25,098 nucleotides of DNA, taken from a virus. Location: positions 1-25,098 of IMG/VR virus record IMGVR_UViG_3300025128_000309. The stretch is one strand, 5' to 3'. The notes below the pieces were generated by a model, which saw nothing but the letters and a program-made list of their open reading frames with translations, ran no database searches and was not told where the DNA came from. Position numbers and translations under genes: made by a program. Shown piece after piece: positions 6,188 to 22,318 of the stretch (positions within the stretch are counted from its first letter, which is position 1; each line of letters opens with the position of its first letter).

Positions 6188-6469
6188 TTAATTTTGACTA
6201 GAAAAGGGGTCTTTGCGGTAGCCAGACAGGTCTGTTCGGAACTGTTTGGCATCAACACCGTACTTCTTTTTTATCTGATCCTCGATGTATTCCACCAACT
6301 CAATTGGCGCACTGTCATCAAACATCTTGAATGGCATTTGGGTGATGTCACCCCCACGCCAACTGAAAAACACCTCACCGCTGCGAGGTGCCATCAATAG
6401 GTTAGGTATACTGGTGATCGACCATATGCCAATCATCTTTTCGTATACCGTTTTATCCATCTCGATCAT
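6188..6469 (-). CDS. Small conserved-looking protein of unknown function (93 aa)
   Basis: Starts MIEMDKTVYEKMIGIW, contains GEVFFSWRGGDITQMPFKMF, and ends in a charged tail (LSGYRKDPFSSQN). No known domain was recognised and there are no Cys pairs or membrane helices. Its ATG overlaps the nuclease stop codon (ATGA), with AAGGA 7-8 nt upstream, so translation is coupled to the nuclease; a longer start at 6526 is less likely. Its position between nuclease and recombinase suggests a role in recombination, but that is only context. Confidence 0.8.
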   Translation of the reverse strand: MIEMDKTVYEKMIGIWSITSIPNLLMAPRSGEVFFSWRGGDITQMPFKMFDDSAPIELVEYIEDQIKKKYGVDAKQFRTDLSGYRKDPFSSQN

Positions 6470-7609: not shown

Positions 7610-7685
7610 AAGTCAAAGACTCCTCATTGAAGAACATCTCTCCTTGCTCCTCGCTTTCCAGTACATAGTTTCCAATTTTGCTCAT
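7329..7685 (-). CDS. First ORF of the leftward recombination operon; N-terminal part plausible, C-terminal part doubtful
   Basis: The ATG at 7685 has a strong SD (GGAGG, 5 nt upstream) and lies about 16 nt downstream of the expected start of the leftward transcript. The first about 28 residues (MSKIGNYVLESEEQGEMFF, then NEESLTYEF) look like a phage protein. The remaining about 90 residues (KERE...GRAGVLHRQTRRGRG) overlap the 7277-7609 gene in another frame and have shadow-like composition. Possible explanations are a real 118-aa overlapping gene, a short gene that lost its stop by frameshift, or a +1 shift joining it to the 7609 frame. Confidence 0.35.
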   Translation of the reverse strand: MSKIGNYVLESEEQGEMFFNEESLTYEFRNTKEREHEGASARRIATDDTVGRDVLEGRIRHTRLAGKLYKQTKRSAKLVQAMARSAVRRGRAGVLHRQTRRGRGYFRPGLLQKGAGAR

Positions 7686-7700
7686 GCAAACCTCCATCAG

Positions 7701-7737
7701 GTTGCAAAGTATAACGACACACGTTATGTTGTGCAAC
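7701..7737. promoter_or_regulatory. Divergent promoter pair on a 37-bp dyad (candidate operator)
   Basis: The 53 bp between divergent starts holds two nested inverted repeats with one centre: GTTGCA (7701-7706) / TGCAAC (7732-7737) and ATAACG (7711-7716) / CGTTAT (7722-7727). On the minus strand TTGCAC (7736-7731), 17 bp, TATACT (7713-7708) is a good sigma70 promoter for the recombination operon. On the plus strand TTGCAA (7702-7707), 17 bp, TATGTT (7725-7730) serves RusA and the primase-helicase. Each -35 overlaps the other strand's -10, so the two promoters compete for the same DNA. The inner palindrome could also bind a dimeric repressor. Confidence 0.6.
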
Positions 7738-8085
7738 ATGTTTGAGGCAACAATACTTGGAGAACCTGCATCGAAAGCCAACTCGCGTAGAATGGTAACG
7801 ATAGCAGGACGTGCTCGATTCATCAAAAGCCAGAAGGCGATTGATTACGTCGCAGCCTTCAACAAGCAATGTCCCAAGCTAGATGAACTGCTCGAAGGTG
7901 ACGTGAAAGTCACCATGACAATCTACTACCGCACTCGTAGGCCAGACCTAGATGAGTCGGTGATACTCGATTGTTTAGAGGGATGTGCTTACAAGAACGA
8001 CAGGCAAGTGAAACAGAAGCATATCTATCACGGCCTGGACAAAGAGAATCCTAGAGCAGAGATCATCGTTGAACCTGTCGGATAA
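7738..8085 (+). CDS. rusA: RusA-family Holliday-junction resolvase
   Basis: 115 aa. RusA dimers cut four-way DNA junctions to resolve recombination and replication intermediates. Seen: N-terminal beta strand (MFEATILGEPASKANSRRMV), and at residues about 67-92 the RusA signature RRPDLDESVILDCLEGCAY followed by KNDRQV, with the acidic metal-binding residues; a C-terminal strand (RAEIIVEPV) completes the fold. Start 7738 fits the family. It has no SD and would be nearly leaderless if transcribed from the predicted promoter (start near 7737). ATG 7726 (four residues longer) is the alternative. Confidence 0.85.
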   Translation: MFEATILGEPASKANSRRMVTIAGRARFIKSQKAIDYVAAFNKQCPKLDELLEGDVKVTMTIYYRTRRPDLDESVILDCLEGCAYKNDRQVKQKHIYHGLDKENPRAEIIVEPVG

Positions 8086-8104
8086 TAAGGAGCTAATAAT
8101 CAAG

Positions 8105-8356
8105 ATGCTCGAACAGACGATCAAGGATTTGAACGATCCAATTCAGTCTGTGCGGGAAGATGCACTGAGATACATGATGAAGTTTGATGCTTGGGATGTT
8201 TGCCGAGAGAACAACGTCGATGAAGGCGTGGCGGCAAAGTTCTTTGAGATCACCTATAAGGTGGCGAGCGAAGACAAAGGTATCAGGCGTCAAAAGGCAG
8301 TGATGGATGGGGTGAAGGAACTAAGGAGAACAGTCATAGAAGGCTATCGAATCTGA
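8105..8356 (+). CDS. Small helical protein of unknown function (83 aa)
   Basis: Acidic, helix-rich protein: MLEQTIKDLNDPIQSVREDA, LRYMMKFDAWDVCRENNVDE, RRQKAVMDGVKELRRTVIEG. No domain recognised. AAGGAG lies 12 nt before the ATG at 8105, rather far; a TTG at 8069 overlapping the rusA end gives 12 more residues without an SD. It sits between rusA and the primase-helicase in the same transcript, so a replication role is possible but unproven. Confidence 0.75.
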   Translation: MLEQTIKDLNDPIQSVREDALRYMMKFDAWDVCRENNVDEGVAAKFFEITYKVASEDKGIRRQKAVMDGVKELRRTVIEGYRI

Positions 8357-8365
8357 AAGCTACCG

Positions 8366-8384
8366 ATCAACTTTAAGAGTTGAT
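8366..8384. repeat. Short perfect inverted repeat ahead of the primase-helicase
   Basis: ATCAACT (8366-8372), TTAAG loop, AGTTGAT (8378-8384). It lies in the 93-bp gap before the primase-helicase and is flanked by two copies of AAAGCTAyCG (8357-8366 and 8388-8397). No T-run follows, so it is not a terminator. It could be an operator or an mRNA hairpin. Confidence 0.35.
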
Positions 8385-8449
8385 TAGAAAGCTATCGTCG
8401 ATTGCCTTCTATAAATATCACAGATCAAAATGATTCACAAGGAGGCAAG

Positions 8450-10225
8450 ATGAATCAATTAAACGAGGACGATTTCGAGTATTTTCTAACGAGTCGGGGT
8501 GAAGGGAGGCATGTCTGTCCACTGTGTTCAGGCGACAGAAAGAAAAAGAACCAACGCACACTCGATGTCGATCACGTCAGCGACGGCTTGGTGTACAAGT
8601 GCTGGCATTGTGAGGTATCGGGTAAGGTGAAGGACAATCCATTCGATGATTTCGACATTGATCCCCCAGCCAAGGTGCAAGCGATCAGTGTCCCAAAGCA
8701 AAACGATTCGCTTGTTGCTGATAACTTCCTGCGCCTTCGAGGCATAGACCCGGATCGCATACGCCATCTCAATGTGGTGGGCGGTACTCACTACTTCCAC
8801 AACGCTGGTGATGTGTCAGCCATCGGCTTTGCGTATCAAGACAAGTCAGCGATCAAGTGGCGCAGTACTGAAGGCAAGAACTTCATACAGGATGGCTCTG
8901 CTCAGAACCTGTGGAACATAGAGTCAGCAACAGATCAGCACACCACGGTCATCATCACTGAGGGTGAGCTTGATTGCTGCGCTATCTCCGACGCTCTCGG
9001 CACTCGCCCTGATCACCTGGTCGTATCTGTACCCAGCGGTGCCCCTCAAAAGGTGAGTAACCGCAAGGTTGATCCAGCGGAGGACAGAAAGTTCGGATAC
9101 CTCTGGAAAGCAAAATCTGTCCTTGATCAAGCAGACAAGATAATTCTGGCAATGGACTCTGATGAGCCTGGAGAGGCGCTGGGCGAGGAGATAATGAGGC
9201 GTGTGGGTAGGGCCAAGTGCTACCACTTAGAGCTACCAGAGGGCTGCAAGGACGCCAACGATGCGCTTATTAATCATGGTGCAGATTATTTAGCAGAGTT
9301 GCTCGATTGTGCGGTGCCAACTCCACTGGTTGGGGTCTACAGTGCAGATGACTACAGTGAAGACGTGGCTTTCCTGTACGAACGAGGGCTGATGCAGGGC
9401 AAGAGCACTGGGTTTGCAGGTCTCGATGACGTGTACACCGTTCTGCAAGGTCAGCTTACGGTGGTCACGGGTATGCCAGGGTCAGGCAAGTCGGAGTTTA
9501 TCGATGCGGTGCTTGTTAATTTGGCAGAGCAGCACGATTGGAAGTTTGCTATCGCCAGCTTCGAGAACCCACCTCCCCTGCACATCATCAAGCTGAGTGA
9601 AAAGAGAGCACGCAAGCCTTTCTTCATGGGCAACACAGAGCGTATGTCTCAGGAGGAGATGAGCGAGGCTAAGTCATGGGTCAACGATCACTTCGCGTTC
9701 CTTGATAGCAAGGATGGTGAGCCAGCTACTATCGACTCGATCATAGATCGCACTAAGCAAGCCGTCATGCGACTGGGATGCCGGGGTCTGGTGATCGATC
9801 CGTATAACTACATTGCACAAGGCAACACAGAACAAGAGAGCCATGCGATCAGTGAGATGCTGACACGCATGGTGCAGTTCGCCCGATCCTGTGATCTGCA
9901 CATATGGTTCATTGCGCACCCTGCAAAGATGAGGGCGAATGACAACGGGCAGATGCCGATACCAAACGGCAATCACATCAGTGGATCTGCTGCATGGTTT
10001 GCGAAGTCAGACTGCGGACTTACGGTGCATCGCACTGGTGAGCACATCGAGGTGCATTCGTGGAAGTGTCGATTCAAATGGATAGGATCGATAGGCCATG
10101 CGAAGTTGAGCTACGATCCAGTGAATGGACGATATAAAGATTTTGTTGAATGGGATGAGGCAGAGGCCAATCCCGTTCGGACAGTGAGGAATTTTAATGA
10201 AACGAAAGACGAATGGGACATCTGA
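8450..10225 (+). CDS. Bifunctional DNA primase-helicase (T7 gp4 / Twinkle type)
   Basis: 591 aa; primes and unwinds DNA at the phage fork. Order of domains: a four-Cys zinc ribbon (C23, C26, C51, C54); a Toprim primase domain with IITEGELDCCAISDAL near residue 165 and LAMDSDEPGEALGEE near 230; a linker; and a DnaB-type (SF4) helicase with Walker A VVTGMPGSGKS near 338 and Walker B GLVIDPYN near 446, plus a later conserved stretch (HIWFIAHPAKM). Length fits T7 gp4 (566 aa). Start 8450 is preferred over 8402 because AAGGAGG sits 5 nt upstream. It follows rusA and overlaps the next gene by 29 bp. Confidence 0.95.
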   Translation: MNQLNEDDFEYFLTSRGEGRHVCPLCSGDRKKKNQRTLDVDHVSDGLVYKCWHCEVSGKVKDNPFDDFDIDPPAKVQAISVPKQNDSLVADNFLRLRGIDPDRIRHLNVVGGTHYFHNAGDVSAIGFAYQDKSAIKWRSTEGKNFIQDGSAQNLWNIESATDQHTTVIITEGELDCCAISDALGTRPDHLVVSVPSGAPQKVSNRKVDPAEDRKFGYLWKAKSVLDQADKIILAMDSDEPGEALGEEIMRRVGRAKCYHLELPEGCKDANDALINHGADYLAELLDCAVPTPLVGVYSADDYSEDVAFLYERGLMQGKSTGFAGLDDVYTVLQGQLTVVTGMPGSGKSEFIDAVLVNLAEQHDWKFAIASFENPPPLHIIKLSEKRARKPFFMGNTERMSQEEMSEAKSWVNDHFAFLDSKDGEPATIDSIIDRTKQAVMRLGCRGLVIDPYNYIAQGNTEQESHAISEMLTRMVQFARSCDLHIWFIAHPAKMRANDNGQMPIPNGNHISGSAAWFAKSDCGLTVHRTGEHIEVHSWKCRFKWIGSIGHAKLSYDPVNGRYKDFVEWDEAEANPVRTVRNFNETKDEWDI

Positions 10226-10673
10226 TGAGATCACAATGGACGTGGGTAATCCGAAACTGCATGAGAGACATGATGTGGTGTTGGAAAAAACAGACGGAGA
10301 AGTGGTATCGAAGGCCAGGGTAACCGATCAGTTAGAGATTGATCGCTTATTGCTAACAGATAAGATCACAAGCCTGGAGCACAAGGCGGCTGAGTATATG
10401 CTGCAAGTGTTTGTAGACGCTGGGGTTTTTGTAAAAACCGTCAACATGAACGTCATCTCTTCTGGCAGGTTTGCCAAAAGTAATTATGACTATGGTTTGT
10501 TGAGGTTCCGAGACACTGCGGGGGTGATCGAAGATGCAGTGGGTGAGGATGCTGCGGTTATGGTATTCAATGCCATCGCTAAGGATCTGCCAGTGCTTGC
10601 CAATGAGCTACCGTTTTTTCGACTAGCGATGCAGGCTTTGGATAAAAACTACATCAGGGGATCGTTCGACTGA
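10197..10673 (+). CDS. Hypothetical protein downstream of primase-helicase (158 aa)
   Basis: Starts inside the end of the primase-helicase gene, with GAGG 8 nt upstream of the ATG. A polar N-terminal 45 residues precede a helical domain (LLLTDKITSLEHKAAEYMLQ, VFVDAGVFVKTVNMNV, NYDYGLLRFRDTAGVI, AAVMVFNAIAKDLPVL). Nothing catalytic or metal-binding is visible and no family was recognised with certainty. Last gene of the rightward replication operon, before a strong terminator. Confidence 0.8.
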   Translation: MKRKTNGTSDEITMDVGNPKLHERHDVVLEKTDGEVVSKARVTDQLEIDRLLLTDKITSLEHKAAEYMLQVFVDAGVFVKTVNMNVISSGRFAKSNYDYGLLRFRDTAGVIEDAVGEDAAVMVFNAIAKDLPVLANELPFFRLAMQALDKNYIRGSFD

Positions 10674-10740
10674 GTACTTGCAATTCCAGAACGGTCTGAG
10701 AGAATCCACGCGACAGTCTCTCCTTAACTGTCATCCCTAG

Positions 10741-10782
10741 CCCCCGGTCATCGCCTCCATTGTGACCGGGGGTTTTCTTTTA
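10741..10782 (+). terminator. Rho-independent terminator of the replication operon
   Basis: CCCCCGGTCA (10741-10750), 12-nt loop, TGACCGGGGG (10763-10772), then TTTTCTTTT. A 10-bp GC-rich stem with a T-run, 67 bp after the last rightward gene. The opposite strand lacks a T-run after the stem, so it acts rightward only. Confidence 0.92.
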
Positions 10783-10853
10783 GGGCCGCATGTCGGCTTT
10801 ATGGGTCTCACACTGGGCCGCATTGCGGATTCTATCAGGGCCGTATGTCGGCC
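10783..10853. repeat. Three tandem short hairpins sharing GGGCCGyAT
   Basis: Directly after the terminator: GCCG-CATGT-CGGC (10785-10797), CCGC-ATT-GCGG (10818-10828) and GGCCG-TATGT-CGGCC (10839-10853). Each starts GGGCCG (10783, 10815, 10838). The stems covary (the loop-closing ends differ but still pair), so the fold rather than the exact sequence is kept. Role unknown; possibilities are a leftward stop or stability element for the convergent operon, or a protein-binding array. Confidence 0.5.
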
Positions 10854-10990
10854 TAGCTTTGTTTGAATGTGCCAGTTGATCGGATTGAGCCGTGAATATG
10901 GGGCAGCTACTTCATCCGATCTCTTTCACAGAGGAGGCTGGGTGTGTTCAATCCCAGCAGCACCTGACGCTGGCACTCGCCTTGTGCATC
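10854..10990. other. Convergent intergenic tail with no supported gene
   Basis: Between the hairpin trio and the end of the leftward operon. It holds an isolated 6-bp hairpin GCTGGG/CCCAGC (10937-10958) with a tRNA-T-loop-like TTCAAT in its loop, but no tRNA could be built around it. Open frames here are not supported by SD or composition. Confidence 0.4.
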
Positions 10991-11230
10991 CTAGCCCCCA
11001 AGTCCTCGTACTTTTTTCACCGACATGCCGCCAATCTCGTAGCCATCAGTAATCTCTGGCAAAGATTGGATGTCGGATATCGACTTGTCCCGGTAGTTTG
11101 CAATCATCCAATCCTCGCTTACATCAGGATCGCGGTACATGATCACGATCTCGTAGTCACCCTTGGGGTGATCGCCCAGCATCTCGTTTGCCAACACCAT
11201 GATTTGCTCCACGTCATCAAACAGAGACAT
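10991..11230 (-). CDS. Hypothetical protein, last gene of the leftward accessory operon (79 aa)
   Basis: Acidic protein MSLFDDVEQIMVLANEMLGD, ... EIVIMYRDPDVSEDWMIANY, ... IGGMSVKKVRGLGG. The alternation suggests helix followed by beta strands; no family recognised. AGGAG is 7 nt upstream, and it overlaps the preceding gene by 14 bp, indicating coupled translation. Confidence 0.75.
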   Translation of the reverse strand: MSLFDDVEQIMVLANEMLGDHPKGDYEIVIMYRDPDVSEDWMIANYRDKSISDIQSLPEITDGYEIGGMSVKKVRGLGG

Positions 11231-11447
11231 CTTGCTTCTCCTCGACCAGTGAAGCCACCTTATCTTGCAGTCTTGTCCAAGCCTGCTTCAGTTCGGCCTC
11301 TTCTTCTTTGGAGTGGGCGTGACTCCAAAAGCATGTGCCGATCAGGCCATGTATTCTGGGATCGTCCTTGCTCATGCGTAGCAGGGTAGAGAGCATCGAT
11401 AGCTCATCCTGTTCCAACTTGAGATACTTTGTTTTTAATTCACTCAT
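11217..11447 (-). CDS. Small helical hypothetical protein (76 aa)
   Basis: MSELKTKYLKLEQDELSMLS ... KEEEAELKQAWTRLQDKVAS: strongly charged and probably helical or coiled-coil. Start 11447 was chosen because AAGGAG lies 6 nt upstream; a frame to 11471 would translate the SD itself. It overlaps the preceding gene by 8 bp and the next by 14 bp. Function unknown. Confidence 0.75.
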   Translation of the reverse strand: MSELKTKYLKLEQDELSMLSTLLRMSKDDPRIHGLIGTCFWSHAHSKEEEAELKQAWTRLQDKVASLVEEKQDVSV

Positions 11448-12600
11448 CGTCATCTCCTTGATTGTTATCAACGGTTAAAAAGTAGTCCTTATGCACCACG
11501 CCAAGCGCCTTGTTGCCCCGGCTATGCTGACCTATGTAAGTCCTTGATCTGACATCACCAAACTCATCCTTGAAGGTTCGCCAGTGACCGCGCACAACAT
11601 GCAAACGCTTGCCATACTTCTCGACTCGCAGCGGGGCTGGACGCATCTCGATGCCATCCTCCTTGGGCAACTTCACTGTGCATCGGTAGTAAGAGTCGTA
11701 TGGCGCTATGTTCGGGCGCTTGCTCTTATTACCTTTGTTGGAGTTAGGACTTGCTGGATGCTTGTCCACCCAAGGGTAATTGAGGACTCGAAGAATCTCC
11801 CAGCTTACCCGTGTGAGTTGGGGTGCCCAAGGTTCTTCGTATTGCTCGTACACATGCTCCAAGATTTCTCTATTAAACAGAGCTTCGTTCTCCGGTATCT
11901 GGCAACGATTGACTAGATCCACATAACCTGGAGCAGCCTCCGACAGATCTGTATCCTCAAAGTCCACACCAAAAAGCAACAACGATTGATGCTTCACACC
12001 TACATCGCTGCTTGGGAGACTAGGTTCTCTAGCATCGACAGCGCGTCCAAACACACTCATGTAGATTGCCGGATCACCGTCGAAGCTACCAAAGCAAAGA
12101 AAATCTTTCTTAGATTTGTTATTTGACCAAGCGAACACGCCTACTCGGTCAAAGAACATATTGCGATCTGGCTTTGGGGTTCCATCTCTTTCTGTAATTT
12201 TCCAAAGTTCGGGATGCATACACCCGACGACCCACCCATGCTTACGCATTTCCTCGTTGAATATCTTGCCACTGAATTCCATCCAGCAAGTTCTGAAAGG
12301 TAGTCTCAGTTCCTGGTAGGACTCCATGACATTTTCGGTCAGTACGGAAACTGGCAGCGCCCCTTTATCTTTGGTCATGCCAACCCAAGAAGGTTGCTCG
12401 AACACAATGTTAAGAAGACGATCATCGATGTCCATTCTGTGAGCTACTCTGAGGCGGTTAGAGATCATCTTTGCCTGCGCTCTGCCCTCGTCGGTGTCTC
12501 CACCTACAGCCGCTACAATGCGCTTGTGAGGCTTTCTCAGGGCGTGTAGCACCGCTGGATACAGGTCGCCCAGGTCTTTGTGGTTGTTTTCTTCAGTCAC
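11440..12600 (-). CDS. Conserved-looking phage hypothetical protein (386 aa)
   Basis: GTG start with AAGGAG 9 nt upstream. The N-terminal third carries IVAAVGGDTDEGRAQAK, the middle is mixed alpha/beta (FGSFDGDPAIYMSVFGRAVD; SLLLFGVDFED), and the C-terminal about 70 residues have a pattern seen in several phage proteins of unknown role: RLHVVRGHWRTFKDEFGDVR, then RTYIGQHSRGNKALG. No catalytic motif was recognised. It is the largest gene of the distal half of the accessory operon. Confidence 0.8.
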   Translation of the reverse strand: MTEENNHKDLGDLYPAVLHALRKPHKRIVAAVGGDTDEGRAQAKMISNRLRVAHRMDIDDRLLNIVFEQPSWVGMTKDKGALPVSVLTENVMESYQELRLPFRTCWMEFSGKIFNEEMRKHGWVVGCMHPELWKITERDGTPKPDRNMFFDRVGVFAWSNNKSKKDFLCFGSFDGDPAIYMSVFGRAVDAREPSLPSSDVGVKHQSLLLFGVDFEDTDLSEAAPGYVDLVNRCQIPENEALFNREILEHVYEQYEEPWAPQLTRVSWEILRVLNYPWVDKHPASPNSNKGNKSKRPNIAPYDSYYRCTVKLPKEDGIEMRPAPLRVEKYGKRLHVVRGHWRTFKDEFGDVRSRTYIGQHSRGNKALGVVHKDYFLTVDNNQGDDDE

Positions 12601-12612
12601 TATCGTTTCTCC

Positions 12613-12906
12613 TTACAGTTTGTTTACAAATACTTCCTGGTGCATCTCGCAGCGCAGGCAGTAAAAGCCTGGGCCATGATCGTATTCCAGGTCATTGCCA
12701 TGACAGACCCCACATCGGAGGTTGTCGTTTTCGTTTTCCTCGATAGCAAGGCAAACCTCACAGAACGTGAAGCTGTACTTGCCATTCTCGTCTTCATCCT
12801 CGACCTCATTCATTTCGATGTCGGGATGCTTTGGACACATGATTGCGTCCGGCTGGTTCCACGGTGCGCGTGGATCGCTTCGTTCTGCGTCACCTCGATC
12901 CAACAT
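12613..12906 (-). CDS. Small zinc-ribbon protein (97 aa)
   Basis: Four cysteine-containing sites: MCPKHP, CEVC, CGVC and CLRC, spaced as two zinc ribbons (CEVC with MCPKH; CGVC...YCLRC), separated by an acidic stretch (EVEDEDENGK). Small zinc ribbons of this sort bind nucleic acid or protein; the target is unknown. Start 12906 follows AAGGAGG at 7 nt; a frame to 12993 is a read-back into the preceding gene. Confidence 0.8.
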   Translation of the reverse strand: MLDRGDAERSDPRAPWNQPDAIMCPKHPDIEMNEVEDEDENGKYSFTFCEVCLAIEENENDNLRCGVCHGNDLEYDHGPGFYCLRCEMHQEVFVNKL

Positions 12907-12940
12907 AGTTAGTCCTCCTTTTTGGGCGCAAGATGCACCG

Positions 12941-13264
12941 TTAATATATTTCGTATTGACCGTGTCCCAGCAGGCTATCGCTGTTGATATCATTACCCTC
13001 TAGCTTACCTTCTCGCTCCATCCTAGCGATTCGCTCTCGCCATCCGCGATATTGATGGACACCTTTAGCCAACAGCCCGATATCCCGTTGGATATAATGG
13101 ATCAGACTTGTTTGAACTTCTTTTGCCCACCAATCTTTCGATCCAAGCTGATCGACATCCGTTCTAACAAAGTAGTCAACGAGTTCTTTCTGACAGACAT
13201 CTAGCTTTCGATTAACCTCTGCTACTGCCTTCTCGTATTCCTTGATCCATTCTTCATCAGTCAC
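12941..13264 (-). CDS. Hypothetical helical protein (107 aa)
   Basis: GTG start with AAGGAG 9 nt upstream. MTDEEWIKEYEKAVAEVNRK, LDVCQKELVDYFVRTDVDQL, IQRDIGLLAKGVHQYRGWRE, RIARMEREGKLEGND: helical throughout and highly charged. No family recognised. It overlaps the end of the preceding gene by 8 bp. Confidence 0.75.
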   Translation of the reverse strand: MTDEEWIKEYEKAVAEVNRKLDVCQKELVDYFVRTDVDQLGSKDWWAKEVQTSLIHYIQRDIGLLAKGVHQYRGWRERIARMEREGKLEGNDINSDSLLGHGQYEIY

Positions 13265-13496
13265 TGCTAATCACTCCTTTTTTGGGCGCAAAACGTACCT
13301 GGTTGGATTGATGACGCCGACGTAGTTCTATTCGACACACGTTCAGAGTATCGAGCCACTGCCTACTTTGATCCTCGCTCGCATCGGGATAGCCGACCAT
13401 CAAAGTTGCCATGTTTTGCAGCATCTCCTGGATCTCGCTGATCTTCTCGATCTTGATCACCTTTTCCCGGAGGTCATGGATAAACTGCTGACTCAC
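13257..13496 (-). CDS. Hypothetical protein (79 aa)
   Basis: GTG start overlapping the previous stop (GTGA) with GGAGG 5 nt upstream. Predominantly helical (REKVIKIEKISEIQEMLQNM) with a basic C-terminal half (CRIELRRRHQSNQVRFAPKK). Its last codons (FAPKKG) are the same DNA as a duplicated SD leader, see the repeat finding. Function unknown. Confidence 0.72.
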   Translation of the reverse strand: MSQQFIHDLREKVIKIEKISEIQEMLQNMATLMVGYPDASEDQSRQWLDTLNVCRIELRRRHQSNQVRFAPKKGVISSD

Positions 13497-13810
13497 GTTA
13501 TCCTCCTCTTGTCGGCTCTATCGGTGCGCTCTGCCTCGAAGCGAAGCTTGCAGGCATCGATCTGTTTGCGTTTCTTTTCGACTCGAATGTTCTGCATTTG
13601 CAGATCGGTGTAGTACTGAGACCACTCAGCAGACCCACGGATCTGAGCCTCGGCGCGAACTGCGCTGAGACCCGAATCCATGAGTGCTGTCTTGCGTGCA
13701 GACTCCCAGCCTTTGAAGGAGGTGTCATAGTTCACTTGAACCATAGCAGCCTCCTCCCACTGCACGATCAGTGCATCGAGTGAGTCGAGTATCTCCTCGA
13801 AATCACTCAT
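13493..13810 (-). CDS. Hypothetical coiled-coil-like protein (105 aa)
   Basis: MSDFEEILDSLDALIVQWEE ... GWESARKTALMDSGLSAVRA ... QMQNIRVEKKRKQIDACKLR, ending in FEAERTDRADKRRIT. A long charged helical C-terminus and a layout like small phage proteins with a helical hairpin. The ATG overlaps the preceding gene by 8 bp and has no SD, so translation probably depends on termination-reinitiation. Confidence 0.72.
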   Translation of the reverse strand: MSDFEEILDSLDALIVQWEEAAMVQVNYDTSFKGWESARKTALMDSGLSAVRAEAQIRGSAEWSQYYTDLQMQNIRVEKKRKQIDACKLRFEAERTDRADKRRIT

Positions 13811-14174
13811 TGGATTCAGTCGGCACAACAGCTTGCATTTCGATATCAAAGTCATAGTCCCTCGGAGACTGATCTTTGATTTTGTTTGCTAGCTTTTTCA
13901 GACGGCCCCGCCGTTGAAGCAGCGCATGATGAACAGCGTCACCAACTTGATCATCCGGGTCTTCGATGCGTTCCAGCCTATTAAGACCCTCTTCAATGGA
14001 GCCAGATTCATGGAACAACAGAGTTAAAATCATTCCGATGTCCGCATGATCAAGGTAGATCTTCTGCGGGTACAACTTGTCTTCCAAGTCACCAATCGCT
14101 TGTTGCTGGATATCTAGCAGGTGCTCTTGGTTTGCAACTTGATCACGCAGTTCTTGTTTCGTTTCGGGATTCAT
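13803..14174 (-). CDS. Hypothetical protein, N-terminal paralogue of the next upstream gene (123 aa)
   Basis: Opens MNPETKQELRDQVANQEHLL, which resembles the start of the gene at 14869 (MKTETKQQLREQLDSANEKL); both then continue as a coiled coil. The remainder (DHADIGMILTLLFHESGSIE; GDAVHHALLQRRGRLKKLAN) is unrelated. AGGAG precedes the ATG by 5 nt. Function unknown; the shared coiled coil may let the two proteins pair. Confidence 0.75.
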   Translation of the reverse strand: MNPETKQELRDQVANQEHLLDIQQQAIGDLEDKLYPQKIYLDHADIGMILTLLFHESGSIEEGLNRLERIEDPDDQVGDAVHHALLQRRGRLKKLANKIKDQSPRDYDFDIEMQAVVPTESNE

Positions 14175-14182
14175 AGCTTCTC

Positions 14183-14869
14183 CTAGATGTCCTGAATGTT
14201 GTTGATCTCGACATCGACAGTGACCTCGTTGTCGGGCCAGCCTCCAATCTTGGAGTACAGATCGGTAATGTTTCGAGCGGTATCGAGCAACAGAGCGATG
14301 TGCTCGTTGGTCTCCACCCTTCTACGGGCATAGAATTGCTCGCGTGTCTCAACTAAAACAGTCTCCGATGGGTAGGTGCGTTCACCGATCTTGACATCAG
14401 GTCTCTCCCAGACCTGACCCTCATCGTCCTCGTTGATCAGCACCCAAGCGTCCGACTCAACCCACTGCCATTCTCCGTTTTCGTATGTACGAATACCCGG
14501 AACCTTGTGGTGCCAGTTGGCTGAAAGGTTAAGATTGGGAATCGGGATCGTGCAGACACGCTGCTTCCGGCCTACATGGTATTCAGACTCTTCGCCATGC
14601 GTGTTGATGGTGATGTACGCATCGGAGTACTCCATCCACCAAGCATTGTCTGGGTGGACGATCTTGTACTTGTCTACCAAGTCTGGATCATGGTTCTCGA
14701 TGCCTAACAGAGCCTCCAGTTCTTCAACACGCTCACGTTTCTCAACGAACCTCTTTCGCGTCGATTCTCTTTGAGTCTCTGCGTCTCTCAGACGACGCTC
14801 AGTGTCGATCAGCTTCTCGTTTGCTGAATCCAGTTGCTCACGCAGTTGTTGTTTTGTTTCGGTTTTCAT
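14183..14869 (-). CDS. Hypothetical coiled-coil protein behind hammerhead HHR-a (228 aa)
   Basis: An N-terminal coiled coil of about 55 residues (TETKQQLREQLDSANEKLID, ERRLRDAETQRESTRKRFVE) is followed by a Trp-rich beta region (DNAWWMEYSDAYITINTHGE, YENGEWQWVESDAWVLIN) and a C-terminal helical segment. No family recognised. AAGGAG lies 6 nt before the ATG, 24 nt after the predicted cleavage point of the hammerhead at 14889-14944. Confidence 0.78.
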   Translation of the reverse strand: MKTETKQQLREQLDSANEKLIDTERRLRDAETQRESTRKRFVEKRERVEELEALLGIENHDPDLVDKYKIVHPDNAWWMEYSDAYITINTHGEESEYHVGRKQRVCTIPIPNLNLSANWHHKVPGIRTYENGEWQWVESDAWVLINEDDEGQVWERPDVKIGERTYPSETVLVETREQFYARRRVETNEHIALLLDTARNITDLYSKIGGWPDNEVTVDVEINNIQDI

Positions 14870-14888
14870 AGGTTCTCCTTATTGGTTT

Positions 14889-14944
14889 TCCGATATGCCC
14901 CGGAGGGCATTTCACCTGGTCACCAGCCAGGATCGTCAGTCGGA
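14889..14944 (-). ncRNA. Candidate type I hammerhead ribozyme HHR-a (variant)
   Basis: Minus strand, 5' to 3': stem I TCCGA (14944-14940); core CTGACGA (14939-14933); stem II CCTGG with loop CTGGTGA and CCAGG; core GAAA (14913-14910); stem III ATGCCC, loop TCCG, GGGCAT region; cleavage triplet ATA; stem I TCGGA (14893-14889). The cut falls between 14894 and 14893. Two departures from the other copies: the pair next to the core that is normally G10.1-C11.1 is T/T, and the triplet is ATA rather than GTC (NUH is still permitted). It may be slower or decaying. It lies 56 nt after the stop of the 78-aa gene. Confidence 0.72.
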
Positions 14945-15000
14945 TGTTGTTGTTTGTACGTTAGTCTACGCTGCTTGTTGCGCTGTCGCAACACCAAGCC

Positions 15001-15237
15001 TTAGCGATCTGCGTGATCGCGGAGCTTTTGTATTGCTGCGAGACACGTTTCGTTGCCGCCTTTGTTTGCCCTCTTGCCTGCTTTCCAGGCGAGTCGAGCG
15101 GGACTTTGGGGGTGACCTGCTTTTGGGCCATCATTGTATCCAACCCAGAAGGCGTGCTTTGAAGTCGAGCCTCTGTCGGGAAACCCCTTGTTGTTTATCG
15201 GAGGATTCTCCAAATAGTGATCGTAGATCGTTGTCAC
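15001..15237 (-). CDS. Small hypothetical protein between ardC and HHR-a (78 aa)
   Basis: GTG start at 15237 with AAGGAG 7 nt upstream. The product reads as a real phage protein: MTTIYDHYLENPPINNKGFP, SKHAFWVGYNDGPKAG, LARLAWKAGKR-like helix (ARLAWKAGKRANKGGN). The same frame extends upstream under ardC, but that part is a shadow. FWVGY...LAWKAG is seen in small phage proteins of unknown function. Confidence 0.7.
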   Translation of the reverse strand: MTTIYDHYLENPPINNKGFPDRGSTSKHAFWVGYNDGPKAGHPQSPARLAWKAGKRANKGGNETCLAAIQKLRDHADR

Positions 15238-15251
15238 GTCAGTACTCCTTG

Positions 15252-15269
15252 GGCCGCTATGCAGCGGCC
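15252..15269 (-). other. Hairpin over the ardC stop codon
   Basis: GGCCGCT-GCAT-AGCGGCC on the coding strand, a perfect 7-bp stem with the TAG stop of ardC in its loop and 3' arm. AAGGAG of the next gene follows within 4 nt. No T-run, so it is probably not a terminator; it could slow terminating ribosomes or protect the 3' end. Confidence 0.4.
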
Positions 15270-16171
15270 TGTTGGGTTTTGGATTGCAGGGAGTCGAGGT
15301 AATCGACTGCCTTCTGCGCTTGTGCTGCTGCGTCCTTGATGAACGCCTTGTCATCGTCCAGAGCCTTGAGCCAGCCCTTGAGGTATTGCAGGTGATCGGC
15401 ACGGATCTCACTGCTAACGCCCAGGTCAATGCACAAGATCGCGGCACCGATCTCAGCGATCAGTTCCTCGAATGCATAGCCTCGCTTGTTCTTCGAGTCG
15501 AGGCGATCATTGCGAGACTTGTGCCCCGTCCAGTGGACGTGTTCGTGCAGTAGCGTCGAGTAGAAGCACTCGGTCGCGGTGCTGGTCTTGGTCGCGCTGA
15601 ACAGTGATCGCTCAGGCATGACGATCTGATCGTTGCCAGGGTTGTAGAACGCTCGGCCTTCGCCCGTGTAGGTGAGGCTCGCGCCCACGTTCGCCAGGTA
15701 CTGATCGACGCGATCATTGCGCTCGGTCTCATCAACCTGGTCGATCACTGGTGGTGTCCAGGGGTTCTCGAATCCCTCGATCACGTTGTCACGCACGCTG
15801 CTGTAGTCCCAGACAGCGTCGGTGATAAACCCAAAGACCCCATACTGGCTCTCGGTGTCGCCTGTGGATTCGTTCACCTTCTCGCCAGTCTTAACCTTGC
15901 GAGGGCGTGCGATGTAGAAGTCAGCCTTGCTTTTGACCTGGTAGCCAAGCTTCTGCCAGCCGTTGTAGGTGGAGTAGAACGCTGAGCCTTTCAGCATTGC
16001 GATCAGTGCGTTAGCGCCAGTGGCGCGATGGCCTGTGGCTACGTTGTGGGGCCGCACGGCTAGGCTGGCGAAGGGTAGTGTGAAGTCTTCAGAGTTCACG
16101 CCTTCGATCAGTTGAGTGATCTGCTCAGCAAGCTGATCGTTGATGCGCTGGTTGTGGTCTATCTTGGTCAT
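15257..16171 (-). CDS. ardC: ArdC-type antirestriction protein with zinc metallopeptidase domain
   Basis: 304 aa. ArdC proteins protect incoming DNA from host restriction. The N-terminal ssDNA-binding (DUF1738-like) domain spans about residues 10-130: PFASLAVRPHNVATGHRATG, YSTYNGWQKLGYQVKSKADF. The C-terminal zincin domain has HExxH as H209-E210-H211-V212-H213 (LLHEHVHWTGH) and, after DRLDSKNKRGYAFEELIAE, a glutamate region (E236/E240) that gives the third zinc ligand. Length matches the family. Start 16171 has CGGAG 6 nt upstream; a longer start at 16213 would run back into the leader. It is translated from the RNA downstream of hammerhead HHR-b. Confidence 0.9.
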   Translation of the reverse strand: MTKIDHNQRINDQLAEQITQLIEGVNSEDFTLPFASLAVRPHNVATGHRATGANALIAMLKGSAFYSTYNGWQKLGYQVKSKADFYIARPRKVKTGEKVNESTGDTESQYGVFGFITDAVWDYSSVRDNVIEGFENPWTPPVIDQVDETERNDRVDQYLANVGASLTYTGEGRAFYNPGNDQIVMPERSLFSATKTSTATECFYSTLLHEHVHWTGHKSRNDRLDSKNKRGYAFEELIAEIGAAILCIDLGVSSEIRADHLQYLKGWLKALDDDKAFIKDAAAQAQKAVDYLDSLQSKTQQAAA

Positions 16172-16199: not shown

Positions 16200-16214
16200 C
16201 ATGTATTATACATG
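16200..16214 (-). promoter_or_regulatory. Palindrome with a TATAAT box in the ardC leader
   Basis: CATGTAT-T-ATACATG, a perfect 15-bp palindrome. On the minus strand it contains TATAAT, with TTGGAA (the 3' arm of HHR-b stem I) 16 bp upstream as a weak -35. It could be an internal ardC promoter, an operator, or a hairpin near the 5' end of the cleaved mRNA. Confidence 0.4.
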
Positions 16215-16227
16215 TTGGTTTTGGTTT

Positions 16228-16281
16228 TCCAAGACCCCCGGAGGGGTTTCGATCAGTCACCAGTTGATCTCATCAGTTGGA
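16228..16281 (-). ncRNA. Candidate type I hammerhead ribozyme HHR-b
   Basis: Minus strand: stem I TCCAA (16281-16277); core CTGATGA (16276-16270); stem II GATCA, loop ACTGGTGAC, TGATC (includes the standard G10.1-C11.1 pair); core GAAA (16250-16247); stem III ACCCC, loop TCCG, GGGGT; cleavage triplet GTC (16235-16233); stem I TTGGA (16232-16228). Every invariant core position is present. The cut falls between 16233 and 16232, releasing a 5'-OH mRNA for ardC with a 61-nt leader. The stop codon of the upstream gene is the TGA inside CTGATGA. Confidence 0.92.
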
Positions 16282-17139: not shown

Positions 17140-17198
17140 TTCCAAGACCGTGCAGCGCACGGTTTCGACCAGGCACTACCTGGTCTCGTCAGTTGGAA
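17140..17198 (-). ncRNA. Candidate type I hammerhead ribozyme HHR-c
   Basis: Minus strand: stem I TTCCAA (17198-17193); core CTGACGA (17192-17186); stem II GACCAGG, loop TAGTG, CCTGGTC; core GAAA (17166-17163); stem III ACCGTGC, loop GCT, GCACGGT; cleavage triplet GTC (17148-17146); stem I TTGGAA (17145-17140). All three stems are 6-7 perfect pairs and the core is complete. It starts 3 nt after the stop of the 127-aa gene. The cut between 17146 and 17145 leaves a 25-nt leader for the 67-aa gene. Sequence differs from HHR-e in stems II and III while keeping pairing, which is covariation support. Confidence 0.95.
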
Positions 17199-17200: not shown

Positions 17201-17584
17201 TCAGAAGCGAATGCGCTCCCAGTAGGAGTTGACTGGGCGGTAGCGGCAGTCCCAGGTATCGATCAGGTAGCCGTGCTCGACTGCCGTGAGGTGTCTGCTG
17301 TTACGCACGATAGCCACTCCACGGAAATCCCAGTCTGCAAGCTTGATCAGCTTGCCCTGGGCGTTGCGTGGAGGCTTACGCTTGACCAGACCCTGATCTT
17401 CGGCGTAGGCGATCCACACCTTGTCGTGATTTGGATACGCGCCCATCTCCAGGCCAAATGCCATGAGATCGCGGAACACCTTCCCGTAGGATTCACCAAG
17501 CACGATGCTGAGTGATCTAATCACGCAGTCATCTTTGAAGGTTTTGCAAATGCGCTCACCAGCGCCCCAGTTTTGATATTGCAT
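17201..17584 (-). CDS. Possible papain/C39-like cysteine peptidase-fold protein (127 aa)
   Basis: Candidate catalytic Cys20 at the start of a helix (KDDCVIRSLSIVLGESYGKV), His98 (RHLTAVEHG) at a beta strand and Asp109 (YLIDTWD), in the C-H-D order of papain-like folds. The C-terminal strands (HLTAVEHGYLIDTWDCRYRP) resemble the peptidase half. It could instead be an inactive or transferase relative. CGGAGA precedes the ATG by 8 nt, downstream of hammerhead HHR-d. No signal peptide, so cytoplasmic in the host. Confidence 0.7.
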   Translation of the reverse strand: MQYQNWGAGERICKTFKDDCVIRSLSIVLGESYGKVFRDLMAFGLEMGAYPNHDKVWIAYAEDQGLVKRKPPRNAQGKLIKLADWDFRGVAIVRNSRHLTAVEHGYLIDTWDCRYRPVNSYWERIRF

Positions 17585-17604: not shown

Positions 17605-17666
17605 CTTACCTCGTCAGCGCGTCGGGAGCCACCCGATCACGGACGCCCTGGGGGCGTTTCGGTTAG
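17605..17666 (-). ncRNA. Candidate type II hammerhead ribozyme HHR-d
   Basis: Circularly permuted order on the minus strand: open stem II CTAACC (17666-17661); core GAAA (17660-17657); stem III ACGCCC, loop CCA, GGGCGT; cleavage triplet GTC (17644-17642); stem I CGTG-A-TCGGG, loop TGGCT, CCCGA-CGCG (one bulge, one G-T wobble); core CTGACGA (17617-17611); stem II GGTAAG (17610-17605, one A/A mismatch). The cut falls between 17642 and 17641. It overlaps the stop codon of the membrane-protein gene (TAA within the stem II arm). Confidence 0.85.
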
Positions 17667-17884
17667 TGATTGAAGTCGTAGCTAAGTTCGATCCAGCCCA
17701 CGATTGCCAGCGCGATCGCGTACACGAACATGGCTGGGCCAAGGATCGTAAAGCCCCAGTGAGCACCCTCGGCTGAGAAGTAGGCCCACTCGGTAAATAC
17801 AACGCCGCTGGCGATGAAAAGCAGCACGATCACTAACCAGGCTGATGCTTTGATCAGTGTCCAGATGATTTGAAATAGGTTCAT
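17663..17884 (-). CDS. Small membrane protein (73 aa)
   Basis: Two hydrophobic segments, residues about 5-31 (IWTLIKASAWLVIVLLFIAS) and about 43-66 (WGFTILGPAMFVYAIALAIV), with short polar ends. Probably a two-helix inner-membrane protein. Function unknown; small phage membrane proteins may serve in exclusion, lysis timing or host takeover. CGGAGA lies 8 nt before the ATG, after HHR-e; its stop codon is inside HHR-d. Confidence 0.8.
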   Translation of the reverse strand: MNLFQIIWTLIKASAWLVIVLLFIASGVVFTEWAYFSAEGAHWGFTILGPAMFVYAIALAIVGWIELSYDFNH

Positions 17885-17903
17885 AGGAATGTCTCCGTTG
17901 GTT

Positions 17904-17962
17904 TTCCAAGACGCCCCGTGGGGCGTTTCGGCTGGTCACCACCCAGCACTCATCAGTTGGAA
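17904..17962 (-). ncRNA. Candidate type I hammerhead ribozyme HHR-e
   Basis: Minus strand: stem I TTCCAA (17962-17957); core CTGATGA (17956-17950); stem II G, bulged T, GCTGG, loop GTGGTGA, CCAGC, C; core GAAA (17929-17926); stem III ACGCCCC/GGGGCGT with a tiny loop; cleavage triplet GTC (17912-17910); stem I TTGGAA (17909-17904). It begins directly after the TAA stop of the PP-loop gene. The cut between 17910 and 17909 leaves a 25-nt leader for the membrane protein. Confidence 0.94.
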
Positions 17963-18757
17963 TTAGACGGCCTCGGCATCGATCACTTGCTCCCACTCGG
18001 TAATCGACAGTTGCTTGCCGTTGTGTTTGCGGATGAAAAGCCGAGTGCCGTTGGCCCAGGGGTCTTTGCGCCAGTGGCCTGCGTTGCAGCGACCGCCCTT
18101 GTTGAGGGGCTGACCAGCGTCTAGCCATGCCTGATGCTTTCGTGATGACTCCTCGCTGAATCGCTGCTCGACTAGCTTGATCGTGTCCCAGGCTTTCTTG
18201 TCATGGCGAATGTCCTTGATCTCCTGGACGCTCATGAATGGGCAGAACACGCAGGATGACTTGGCAACCTTGATGCCGTAGTAGTCGAGGATGTCCAGGC
18301 ACGCCTGACGGTTGAGGTTGCGCTCAACCAGTGGGTACTCGTATTCGTTGGTGTCACCCTTTGGCTTGGTGAATCGAGCAGTGCGATGGCCCTCGTCAGC
18401 CTCGATACCGATCAGGTAGGTGATCTGCTGACCAGGGTATGTCTGATCGATGTACTTCTGGATCACATCGCCTTTGTATTTTTTGCTGCAAACATGCGAG
18501 CCGCCAGGCATAACTGGCACGATGCCCAGTCGGGTAACCCACTCGGTGATGTTCTCGCCTTCTTTGCGAACCACAGTGAAGGGCAGACCAGCGTCGGCGC
18601 ATAGCTGCTTAAAGAAGTTGACGTTGTCGTAAGTAGCCTGTGACTCAGCACCAGTGTCAGCGAAGATGACGTGATCAATATCGATGTTGTCTTCGAGAAG
18701 GTGGATAGCCAGGACAGTGCTGCTATCAACGCCGCCGCCAAATGAAAGAATACGCAT
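17963..18757 (-). CDS. PP-loop ATPase family protein (PAPS reductase-like)
   Basis: 264 aa. N-terminal PP-loop MRILSFGGGVDSSTVLAIHL (S5-x-GGGVDSS), which binds and splits ATP; IFADTGAES is the second conserved element. Then HVCSKKYK with C90, GIEADEGHRTARF, and KSSCVFCPFMS with C169 and C172. C90 plus the CxxC could hold a metal or a 4Fe-4S cluster, as in DndC- and TtcA-like sulphur-transfer enzymes. True sulphate reduction is less likely; RNA/DNA modification or sulphur transfer is a better guess. First gene of the accessory operon, preceded by hammerhead HHR-f; ACGGAGA is 6-7 nt upstream of the ATG. Confidence 0.85.
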   Translation of the reverse strand: MRILSFGGGVDSSTVLAIHLLEDNIDIDHVIFADTGAESQATYDNVNFFKQLCADAGLPFTVVRKEGENITEWVTRLGIVPVMPGGSHVCSKKYKGDVIQKYIDQTYPGQQITYLIGIEADEGHRTARFTKPKGDTNEYEYPLVERNLNRQACLDILDYYGIKVAKSSCVFCPFMSVQEIKDIRHDKKAWDTIKLVEQRFSEESSRKHQAWLDAGQPLNKGGRCNAGHWRKDPWANGTRLFIRKHNGKQLSITEWEQVIDAEAV

Positions 18758-18776
18758 AGGATGTCTCCGTAAGTTT

Positions 18777-18828
18777 TAGTTTCGCCGTCCCATCGGCTCA
18801 TCAGTGCATCGGGATCAGATGCAGACTA
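18777..18828 (-). ncRNA. Candidate type III hammerhead ribozyme HHR-f
   Basis: Third permutation on the minus strand: open stem III TAGT (18828-18825) with cleavage triplet GTC (18826-18824); stem I TGCATC, loop TGATCCC, GATGCA; core CTGATGA (18804-18798); stem II GCCG, loop ATGGGA, CGGC; core GAAA (18783-18780); stem III ACTA (18780-18777), only 4 bp. The cut falls between 18824 and 18823. The weak stem III makes this the least certain of the GTC copies, but a GGCGC/GCGCC hairpin (18845-18829) abuts stem III and could stack on it. It sits 20 nt before the PP-loop gene. Confidence 0.72.
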
Positions 18829-19217
18829 GGCGCTGTTAGTGCGCCTTCGCTTTGTGTCTCGCTTTACGCCTCGCCGCCTCTTGGCGGGTCTTGGGGTGCG
18901 GTTGCCGTGGCAACGAAGCGGAACTTCTACTAATGATTTGAAGCGTGCAACGACTAACGACATACGATACATAGACAGATGCTAGACATCCCCGTCGTGC
19001 AAGGGCTAACGGCCCACGACAAATATGCTCAGATCGGGCGATTTAGGGGTAGTTTGCACGGGTCGCCCCTAAACCTGGGTCGTTAGATGTGTGTTGTGAG
19101 GCATGGTATTTGAGGTGCGATCAGGGGTGATCACAATGCGATCAGTGGCGTTATCAATACGAATTGAGGAAAAAGCGATGCGATGCGGCAAGGGTAAGTG
19201 CTCGAAAAGGGGGGGTA
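18829..19217. other. 389-bp divergent intergenic region, rich in repeats and hairpins
   Basis: No gene seen. Contents: hairpins GGCGC/GCGCC (18829-18845), CCGCC-TCTT-GGCGG (18874-18887) and GTTGCC-GT-GGCAAC (18901-18914); two 18-bp direct repeats CGTGCAAsGrCTAACGrC (18944-18961 and 18996-19013), with CTAACGAC again inverted at 19079-19086; TTTAGGGG (19042-19049) / CCCCTAAA (19066-19073) inverted around TTTGCACG; and TGCGATCAG repeats near terS. It must hold start signals for the leftward accessory operon and for rightward terS, but no consensus sigma70 promoter was found, so phage-specific control is possible. Confidence 0.55.
19116..19148 (+). repeat. Two 12-bp direct repeats 21 bp apart upstream of terS
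   Basis: TGCGATCAGGGG (19116-19127) and TGCGATCAGTGG (19137-19148), 11 of 12 identical, with starts 21 bp apart (two helical turns), about 70-100 bp before the terS start. A protein could bind both from one DNA face. Candidate operator or TerS packaging site. Confidence 0.4.
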
Positions 19218-20096: not shown

Positions 20097-21602
20097 TTGT
20101 CAAAGCGAATTGACGCGAAGCTACTCGAAGCACTCCCTGATCTTCCGTTAGAAGAGCAGAAAGAAATCCTTTCTTTGCTAGAAGATCTCGAAGAGTCTGA
20201 GAGACGAGAAGCTGCGCGTGACAGCTTTATGGGATTCACCAATTATGTGTGGCCTGCGTTTATTGAAGGCAGGCACCACAAGATCATGGCAAACGCATTT
20301 GAGCGTGTCGCCAATGGTGAATTAAAACGACTGATCGTAAACATGCCGCCGAGGCACACAAAATCAGAGTTTGCTTCATACTTATTACCTGCTTGGTTTT
20401 TAGGTCGCTTCCCGGAGAAGAAGATCATCCAGACTGCTCACACTGCTGAGTTATCTGTGGGGTTTGGTCGTAAGGTGCGAAACCTCGTTGACAGCGATGA
20501 CTACAAGTCAGTCTTTCCCAGTTTAGGTTTGCGATCCGATAGCAAAGCCGCTGGTCGATGGAGTACTAGCAAGAACGGTGAATACTTCGCTATTGGTGTT
20601 GGTGGTGCAGTGACTGGTAAAGGTGCAGATCTACTGATTATTGATGATCCGCATTCTGAGCAAGAAGGTCAGAGTTCTGATGCAGGTGTCTTTGATCGAG
20701 TGTATGACTGGTACACATCAGGCCCACGTCAGCGTTTACAGCCTGGTGGTGCGATCATTGTGGTGATGACCCGATGGCACAAGCGGGATTTGACGGGGCA
20801 GATCATCAAGTCTTCTGTTCAACGTGCAGGCACAGATGAATGGGAAGTCATTGAGTTCCCCGCAATCATGCCTTCCGGCAAAGCGTTATGGCCTGAGTTC
20901 TGGTCTTTAGAGGAGTTAACCGCTCTACAGAACGAACTACCTGCGCCGAAGTGGAATGCACAGTATCAGCAAAACCCAACCTCAGAGGAGGGTGCGCTGG
21001 TAAAGCGCGAGTGGTGGCAAGAATGGGAAGACGCAACCCCGCCGCCGTGTGAGTTTATTATTCAGTCTTGGGACACAGCGTTCCTAAAGACACAACGTGC
21101 CGACTACTCGGCATGCACAACTTGGGGGGTTTTTTACAAACCCAACTCTGAAGGCGTAATGCAGCCCAATATCATCCTGTTGGATGCTTACAAAGAGCGG
21201 TTAGAGTTCCCTGAACTGAAAAAGACGGCACTAGAGTTTTATACAGACTGGCAACCCGATGCGTGTATTGTGGAGGCCAAAGCTGCTGGTATGCCGCTGA
21301 TCTTTGAATTACGGGCTATGGGTATACCTGTCGGTGAATACACCCCGTCTAGGGGTAACGACAAGATATCTCGAGTCAACGCAGTGTCAGACCTGTTTGC
21401 GTCAGGGATTGTTTGGGCACCAGGTACACGGTTTGCTGAAGAGGTGATCGAAGAGTTTGCTTCGTTTCCTTCTGGTGAACACGATGACCTTGTGGATTCA
21501 TCCACACAGGCACTACTCAGGTTCCGTCAAGGCGGGTTCTTGAGGCTTAACTCAGACGAAGAAGACGAACCGTTCTATCCGAAAAGGGCCACTTATTACT
21601 GA
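20097..21602 (+). CDS. terL: Terminase large subunit (TerL)
   Basis: 501 aa; the packaging motor with ATPase and nuclease. Walker A-like NMPPRHTKSE (residues about 82-91), Walker B LLIIDDPH (about 180-187), coupling region VVMTRWHKRDLTG, then an RNase H-like nuclease with SWDTAF (about 324), VEAKAAG (about 391) and HDDLVDSS (about 461) giving the acidic residues. Start: a TTG at 20097 has GGAG 5 nt upstream; GTG at 20091 overlaps that SD, so TTG is favoured. Its stop overlaps the next ATG (TGATG). Confidence 0.95.
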   Translation: MSKRIDAKLLEALPDLPLEEQKEILSLLEDLEESERREAARDSFMGFTNYVWPAFIEGRHHKIMANAFERVANGELKRLIVNMPPRHTKSEFASYLLPAWFLGRFPEKKIIQTAHTAELSVGFGRKVRNLVDSDDYKSVFPSLGLRSDSKAAGRWSTSKNGEYFAIGVGGAVTGKGADLLIIDDPHSEQEGQSSDAGVFDRVYDWYTSGPRQRLQPGGAIIVVMTRWHKRDLTGQIIKSSVQRAGTDEWEVIEFPAIMPSGKALWPEFWSLEELTALQNELPAPKWNAQYQQNPTSEEGALVKREWWQEWEDATPPPCEFIIQSWDTAFLKTQRADYSACTTWGVFYKPNSEGVMQPNIILLDAYKERLEFPELKKTALEFYTDWQPDACIVEAKAAGMPLIFELRAMGIPVGEYTPSRGNDKISRVNAVSDLFASGIVWAPGTRFAEEVIEEFASFPSGEHDDLVDSSTQALLRFRQGGFLRLNSDEEDEPFYPKRATYY

Positions 21603-22318
21603 TGGTTGAGGTAAATGGCTGGCTTGTCGAAAAAGCCTTTAGGCCATTGTTTAGAAGATTCTCGAAGAAGGGCAATCGTGTGTTTTTTGATAACGCAGAC
21701 TTCCCTGTCACCGCTGTTCTAGAACAAAACTACGATGTGATCAGGGCAGAGTTCGAGAAGATGCGGAACCGTATAGATGAGTTCGCGCCGTTTCAGACCA
21801 TTAGCCCAGATCAGATATACATCTCTAACGATGACAAGTGGAAGATGTTTTTCTTGAAGGCAGGCAAGATCCGCTTTGATCGGAACTGCCAAGAGTTCCC
21901 TGAAACTATGAAGATCATAGACGCCGAGAAGAATCTGATATCTGCCTACTTCTCAGTGATCGGGCCAAGAAAGATGTTGATGCCGCACGAAGGCCCGTGG
22001 TGTGGGGTGCTCAGGGTGCATCTGGGTCTTGATATACCAACCGAAGGCAAAGGCTGTGTGTTGGTGGTGAACAAGCAAGAGTATCGGTGGGAAGAAGGCA
22101 AAGCAGTAGTCTTTGATGACACCTACGAGCACATGGCGGTAAACATGACTAACCGTAACAGGGTAGTTTTGTTTCTGGACTACATGAGACCGTTGCCTGC
22201 ACCGCTGAGTTGGTTGAACCACTTTGTGGTTTATATGGCACGATTCATGGACTATTTCAAAGAGCCGATAAAACGGCACAAGGAATGGGAAAAACAATTT
22301 TATAAGGACGCTGTTTGA
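21602..22318 (+). CDS. Aspartyl/asparaginyl beta-hydroxylase-like Fe(II)/2OG oxygenase
   Basis: 238 aa. The C-terminal half carries the family core: MPHEGPWCGVLRVHLGLDIP (H129, R138, H140) and AVVFDDTYEHMAVNMTNRNR (H177, R187), ending in VVLFLDYMRP. In the family two histidines bind Fe(II) and a downstream arginine binds 2-oxoglutarate; H129, H177 and R187 fit. The N-terminal region (about 1-110) is not recognised; a hydrophobic patch (LNHFVVYMARFM) lies near the C-terminus. Start overlaps the terL stop, and its own stop overlaps the next gene (TGATG). Being wedged between terL and portal suggests action on a virion or host protein; the substrate is unknown. Confidence 0.85.
   Translation: MVEVNGWLVEKAFRPLFRRFSKKGNRVFFDNADFPVTAVLEQNYDVIRAEFEKMRNRIDEFAPFQTISPDQIYISNDDKWKMFFLKAGKIRFDRNCQEFPETMKIIDAEKNLISAYFSVIGPRKMLMPHEGPWCGVLRVHLGLDIPTEGKGCVLVVNKQEYRWEEGKAVVFDDTYEHMAVNMTNRNRVVLFLDYMRPLPAPLSWLNHFVVYMARFMDYFKEPIKRHKEWEKQFYKDAV

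Follow-up and report, generated by a model that had tools for sequence, protein, structure and literature searches.

Prophage clusters that combine hammerhead ribozymes of differing types were described in 2011 (Perreault et al., PMC3088659). As far as the accessible parts of that paper go, several type I, II and III hammerheads flank single genes or short gene blocks there, just as they do in the locus described here. Cleavage of the tandem sets was seen in vitro, and for the A. tumefaciens set in E. coli as well. Those same parts neither connect topology with position nor mention an additional hairpin ahead of type III ribozymes that stand between genes, and no published rule linking topology to operon position was found in the literature. 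The order of the hammerhead blocks can be rearranged in nature, with duplication and convergence both discussed as origins (Eckert et al. 2023, PMC10085705). The non-circular permutations of that study have pseudoknotted orders (SGC and CSG, for example), whereas the present locus contains the three classical circular permutations. The HDV-like theta ribozymes of gut phages are likewise self-cleaving phage RNAs, but in the portion of the source available they form another ribozyme class, linked to suppressor tRNAs (PMC10879173). The roles of prokaryotic hammerheads have been described as an open question (PMC6155905).

A cluster of the same general kind was analysed in an IMG/VR virus record. 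The whole stretch of 25,098 bases is called the window below. Mixed clusters are not unique to it. Terminase genes lie on its plus strand and an accessory operon runs leftward on the minus strand. No cultured phage matched the window in a megablast search.

Six elements in a leftward operon

In the 5' to 3' direction of the minus strand the order is HHR-f, a 264-aa gene, HHR-e, a 73-aa gene, HHR-d, a 127-aa gene and HHR-c. Beyond HHR-c follow four small genes, HHR-b, the ArdC-like gene, a 78-aa gene, element a and further genes (Table 1). Several genes of the operon have no ribozyme. The arrangement is that of a clustered phage hammerhead locus, with several ribozymes flanking phage genes in one direction, among them the ArdC-like and PAPS-reductase-like genes, beside terminase genes. 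Elsewhere in the window, an aspartyl/asparaginyl beta-hydroxylase domain protein (PF05118, 1.4e-42; 21602-22318) adjoins the large terminase gene, and a 1,574-aa protein at 6-4730 carries LPD38 and DUF7178 domains and is of the large polyvalent-protein type.

Table 1. Coordinates of ribozymes, accessory features and genes of the operon, numbered along the window
Feature	Position	Strand	Remarks
HHR-f, type III, leader of leftward operon	18777..18828	-	predicted cut after C17 at 18824
HHR-e, type I, 0 nt past upstream stop codon	17904..17962	-	predicted cut after C17 at 17910
HHR-d, type II, 4-nt overlap with end of upstream gene	17605..17666	-	predicted cut after C17 at 17642
HHR-c, type I	17140..17198	-	predicted cut after C17 at 17146
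HHR-b, type I, good	16228..16281	-	predicted cut after C17 at 16233
Element a, type I hammerhead-like, weaker	14889..14944	-	U10.1/U11.1 mismatch, A17 (AUA triplet at cleavage site)
Hairpin GGCGC-ACTAACA-GCGCC + A-U, directly 5' of HHR-f open stem III	18828..18846	-	weight 15, accessory-hairpin threshold 16
Translation-start segment behind HHR-f, ACGGAGACATCCTATG	18755..18776	-	near-identical to segments behind e, d, c
PAPS-reductase-like gene, 264 aa, operon's first	17963..18757	-	PHROG 424, E 1.6e-29
73-aa gene, function unknown	17663..17884	-	no family matched
127-aa gene	17201..17584	-	PHROG 3754 (function unknown)
ArdC-like antirestriction gene, behind HHR-b	15257..16171	-	PF18818, PF08401, PHROG 7245; start codon per codon-usage caller

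Minus-strand positions 17605-18828 hold f (type III), e (type I) and d (type II) with intact cores. The first-pass annotation had assigned three hammerhead topologies to c, d, e and f, and all four are confirmed as drawn; HHR-c (17198-17140) falls outside the interval 17605-18828 in which it had been included. The core (CUGANGA, GAAA, NUH) is intact with GUC in b, c, d, e and f and with AUA in a. The core-adjacent pairs 10.1-11.1, 1.1-2.1 and 15.1-16.1, which served as a filter in Perreault et al. 2011 (PMC3088659, as far as its accessible parts show), are present in b, c, d, e and f and absent in a. Because the U/U at 10.1-11.1 breaks this core-flanking pairing rule, a is named hammerhead-like only and no membership is claimed for it. 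It is possibly a slow or decayed ribozyme; its mismatch and its A17 are also seen in a close relative, L117. L117 differs from the window at H17 of two elements, both still satisfying NUH: C to U in the orthologue of d (L117 819-880) and C to A in the orthologue of e (L117 523-581).

A stem I-stem II contact of 4-5 bp is possible in 6/6 elements. For example, the tail AGCCA of HHR-d could pair with its loop I (UGGCU), and the tail ACUA of HHR-c with its loop II (UAGU). Folding of the single strand reproduced the drawn stems, apart from minor differences, in most elements; in HHR-f the 4-bp open stem III did not form. A sigma-70-like promoter candidate right behind the cut of HHR-b (TTGGAA-16-TATAAT, minus strand, 16205-16232) was rejected as within chance.

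The finder used here accepts any circular order of the three stems, all of which it requires along with the core and U16.1-H17. Over the 25-kb window it returned the six elements only, all on one strand and with scores of 34.5-53, compared to 0.007 matches per 25 kb at a score of at least 34 in 150 order-2 Markov shuffles. At the Rfam gathering threshold, which is a curation threshold and no property of the ribozyme itself, there was no match in the window. The elements c, d, e, f and b all score below it with the Rfam hammerhead models: 40.6 bits for HHR-f with RF00008 (cut-off 48.5), 34.7 for HHR-d with RF02276 (37), and 31.7, 22.9 and 22.3 for c, b and e with RF00163 (34). Even so, each of c, d, e and f matches the model of its expected type (RF00163, RF02276 or RF00008) along the whole length, and b aligns to RF00163. 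A search of five bacterial genomes with RF00008 gave no match, even in its controls, and so carries no weight.

Two further lines of evidence come from the pairing. In four orthologues of HHR-f, 72/72 pair cells are standard, so that no pair is broken, and both partners have been replaced in 8 pairs, 2 of which belong to the loop I-loop II pseudoknot. Covariation was 0.509 versus 0.190 in shuffles (0/500 reached it). This pair-by-pair test of compensatory change covers f; for d, e, c and b the close relative L117 differs too little. The pseudoknots, which were ignored by the finder, pair better than re-dealt loops among the fetched hammerheads (permutation, z = 6.2 for type I, 20.9 for type II and 3.2 for type III).

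Topology and position across related contigs

Related loci were gathered both by protein and by pattern. Among 217 hammerhead-bearing contigs, all three types occur in 15 and two types in 39, so mixed clusters are a recurring architecture. The five closest cultured relatives (terminase, ~49-60% identity) have no hammerhead in the 26-41 kb around the terminase gene, and the pattern scan of genome contigs found no type III passing the finder.

The position test took in hammerheads followed by a gene within 100 nt and classed them by the preceding gene. A codon-usage gene caller replaced the initial one, which had produced spurious wrong-strand ORFs in GC-rich contigs and a weaker position test. 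A co-directional stop codon lies within 40 nt upstream in 35/40 type I and 114/140 type II elements and in only 3/41 of type III. Types I and II begin 0-4 nt behind that stop (median 0-1 nt) with no detectable difference between them in junction position, and type III is found at the starts of transcription units. Since pattern scans had supplied many of the type II and III elements, the test was repeated on a topology-blind sample selected by terminase. There, 20/25 elements of types I and II and 0/11 of type III stand at gene junctions (p = 7e-6), with the caveat that p-values here and below overstate significance because contigs are related within groups and phylogenetically non-independent. 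In mixed clusters containing type III, it comes first in 46/48, and in 13/15 when these are grouped by ribozyme sequence.

The rule is not absolute. A strict version, with type III only in leaders, was rejected when further type III elements were sampled by another open stem (GGCGTC): 3/8 of these lie at junctions, in GC-rich phages. Type III may therefore be intercistronic, and it is then preceded by a strong hairpin without a T-run, placed between the upstream stop and open stem III. A hairpin above the threshold of 16 occurs before 7/8 intercistronic type III elements and 3/48 others (p = 4e-6), a contrast spotted after the rule had failed and tested on the same data, with only eight intercistronic cases, some of them related. 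The eighth (L384) has a bulged hairpin that the scorer missed. At type I and type II junctions such a hairpin is found in 6% and 3%. The two contigs that break the III-first order, L141 and L296, both have this additional hairpin at their type III.

Some other arrangements were seen among these contigs. In L141 (IMGVR_UViG_3300033112_000310; 870-15614, plus strand), 23 consecutive genes each stand behind their own type II hammerhead. Its hairpin-bearing type III follows this array, and the remainder of the 112-kb contig yielded no hammerhead. Shorter type II arrays, of 6-9 per locus, occur in L250, L260, L265, L292, L294, L300, L336 and L365. In L175, L181, L183, L194, L208, L211, L225 and their relatives, the leader type III is preceded by ~700-1,400 nt in which no gene was called.

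The same genes behind different ribozymes

A comparison of which topology precedes which gene, proposed in the first-pass annotation, showed three gene families that stand behind differing topologies in different phages. The ArdC-like family (f13) is preceded by type I in the window and in L117, by type III in L005, by type II in L105 and L142, or by no ribozyme. Family f12 is mostly behind type I and in L073 behind type II. Family f45 stands behind type III when it is first (L048, L090) and behind type I when it is internal (L036, L042). Its closest pair, internal in L042 (type I) and operon-first in L090 (type III), is 94% identical in protein, and the similarity of the DNA begins at the border between ribozyme and ribosome-binding site. 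Taken over the roughly 200 viral contigs compared, the results suggest that topology is set by the ribozyme's place in the operon, rather than by the gene behind it.

Across 25 mixed contigs, 18-nt start segments that follow ribozymes of unlike topology have a likeness of 0.44 (p = 1.3e-6), compared to 0.23 with other starts of the same genome and 0.25 with hammerhead starts of other genomes. Start segments common across topologies favour a shuffling of cassettes, as judged from sequence likeness, rather than unrelated insertions. Stem III of d is closer to stem III of e than are 98% of other stem IIIs, which is suggestive of kinship and too little for a claim that one is a permuted copy of the other. 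The earlier view that the cluster cannot be simple tandem copies holds. Of the two origins offered with it, independent origin under selection for function and permutation after duplication, both miss the regularity that topology follows position, and the data separate neither from the other.

Products of the predicted cuts

On balance the preferred explanation, and a probable one, is that the ribozymes cut the operon transcript at gene borders into mRNAs with 3' hairpins and that cassettes are exchanged at these borders. The leftward accessory operon would be transcribed as one RNA and, in the infected cell, cut at every ribozyme-bearing gene border into shorter mRNAs. Where a ribozyme of type I or II directly adjoins a stop codon, cutting at H17 after its closed stem III would make the stem III hairpin the 3' end of the upstream mRNA, and this hairpin may protect that mRNA from exonucleases. 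In a promoter-proximal leader no coding RNA would lie upstream and need protection, so that a type III with its open stem III would be usable; it would trim the leader, and the first mRNA would retain stems I and II. Between genes, a type III would need the additional hairpin directly 5' of it. Gene and start-segment cassettes could swap at ribozyme borders, and any topology might come to stand before one gene. Since the hairpin-leaving types stand between genes and the non-leaving type where nothing upstream codes, we infer that the ribozymes make hairpin-capped 3' ends. The stronger proposal, that topology is a positional code in which an intercistronic ribozyme must leave a hairpin upstream, so that types I and II stand between genes and type III can depart from leaders only with the help of an added hairpin, is tentative and falls somewhat short of probable.

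Topology could instead be chosen for the 5' end left on the downstream mRNA, tuning translation or 5'-end decay, with the 3' end incidental. The predicted remnants there are stems I and II for type III, stem I for type II and none for type I. Hairpins at the 5' end are known to stabilise bacterial mRNAs, and the next start codon lies ~17-30 nt from each ribozyme. Yet types I and II, whose 5' ends are unlike, occupy the same junction positions; because they share the kind of 3' end and the place, the 3' outcome predicts position better. The extra hairpin before an intercistronic type III also remains on the upstream RNA, and selection for the 5' end is considered unlikely. Somewhat less likely again is that the pattern is mostly inheritance without selection, with leaders descending from an old type III and internal elements from an old type I or II. 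Many sampled contigs are indeed related and start segments are common within genomes, but the III-first order recurs in most of the ribozyme-sequence groups, near-identical genes switch topology with position, and the type III of both order-breaking contigs has a compensating hairpin.

Ligation by the ribozymes is a much more doubtful proposition. An excised gene would pair its own ends through a shared open stem and become a circular mRNA, in agreement with open stems being more alike within contigs than closed ones in type I (0.89 vs 0.68) and type II (0.81 vs 0.57, figures that the search pattern and a near-invariant pair push upward). In type III the relation is reversed (open 0.38, closed 0.65), and neighbouring ribozymes of unlike type, as in the window, would not re-close. 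Circular or spliced products were sought by Perreault et al. 2011 and none were found, according to the available part of that paper (PMC3088659). The least credible reading is that the elements are chance or decayed, functionless motifs: the irregular element a and the Rfam scores under curated cut-offs would fit it, but the null rate, the covariation of f, the pseudoknots and the strict placement all speak against it.

If topology is indeed a positional code of this kind, hammerhead arrays would act as makers of RNA 3' ends in place of terminators. This would help explain the persistence of all three permutations. The link between topology and position would give these clusters a concrete and testable function, hairpin-capped mRNA ends, and the three permutations a selective reason, with viral contigs that carry mixed clusters serving as natural swap experiments.
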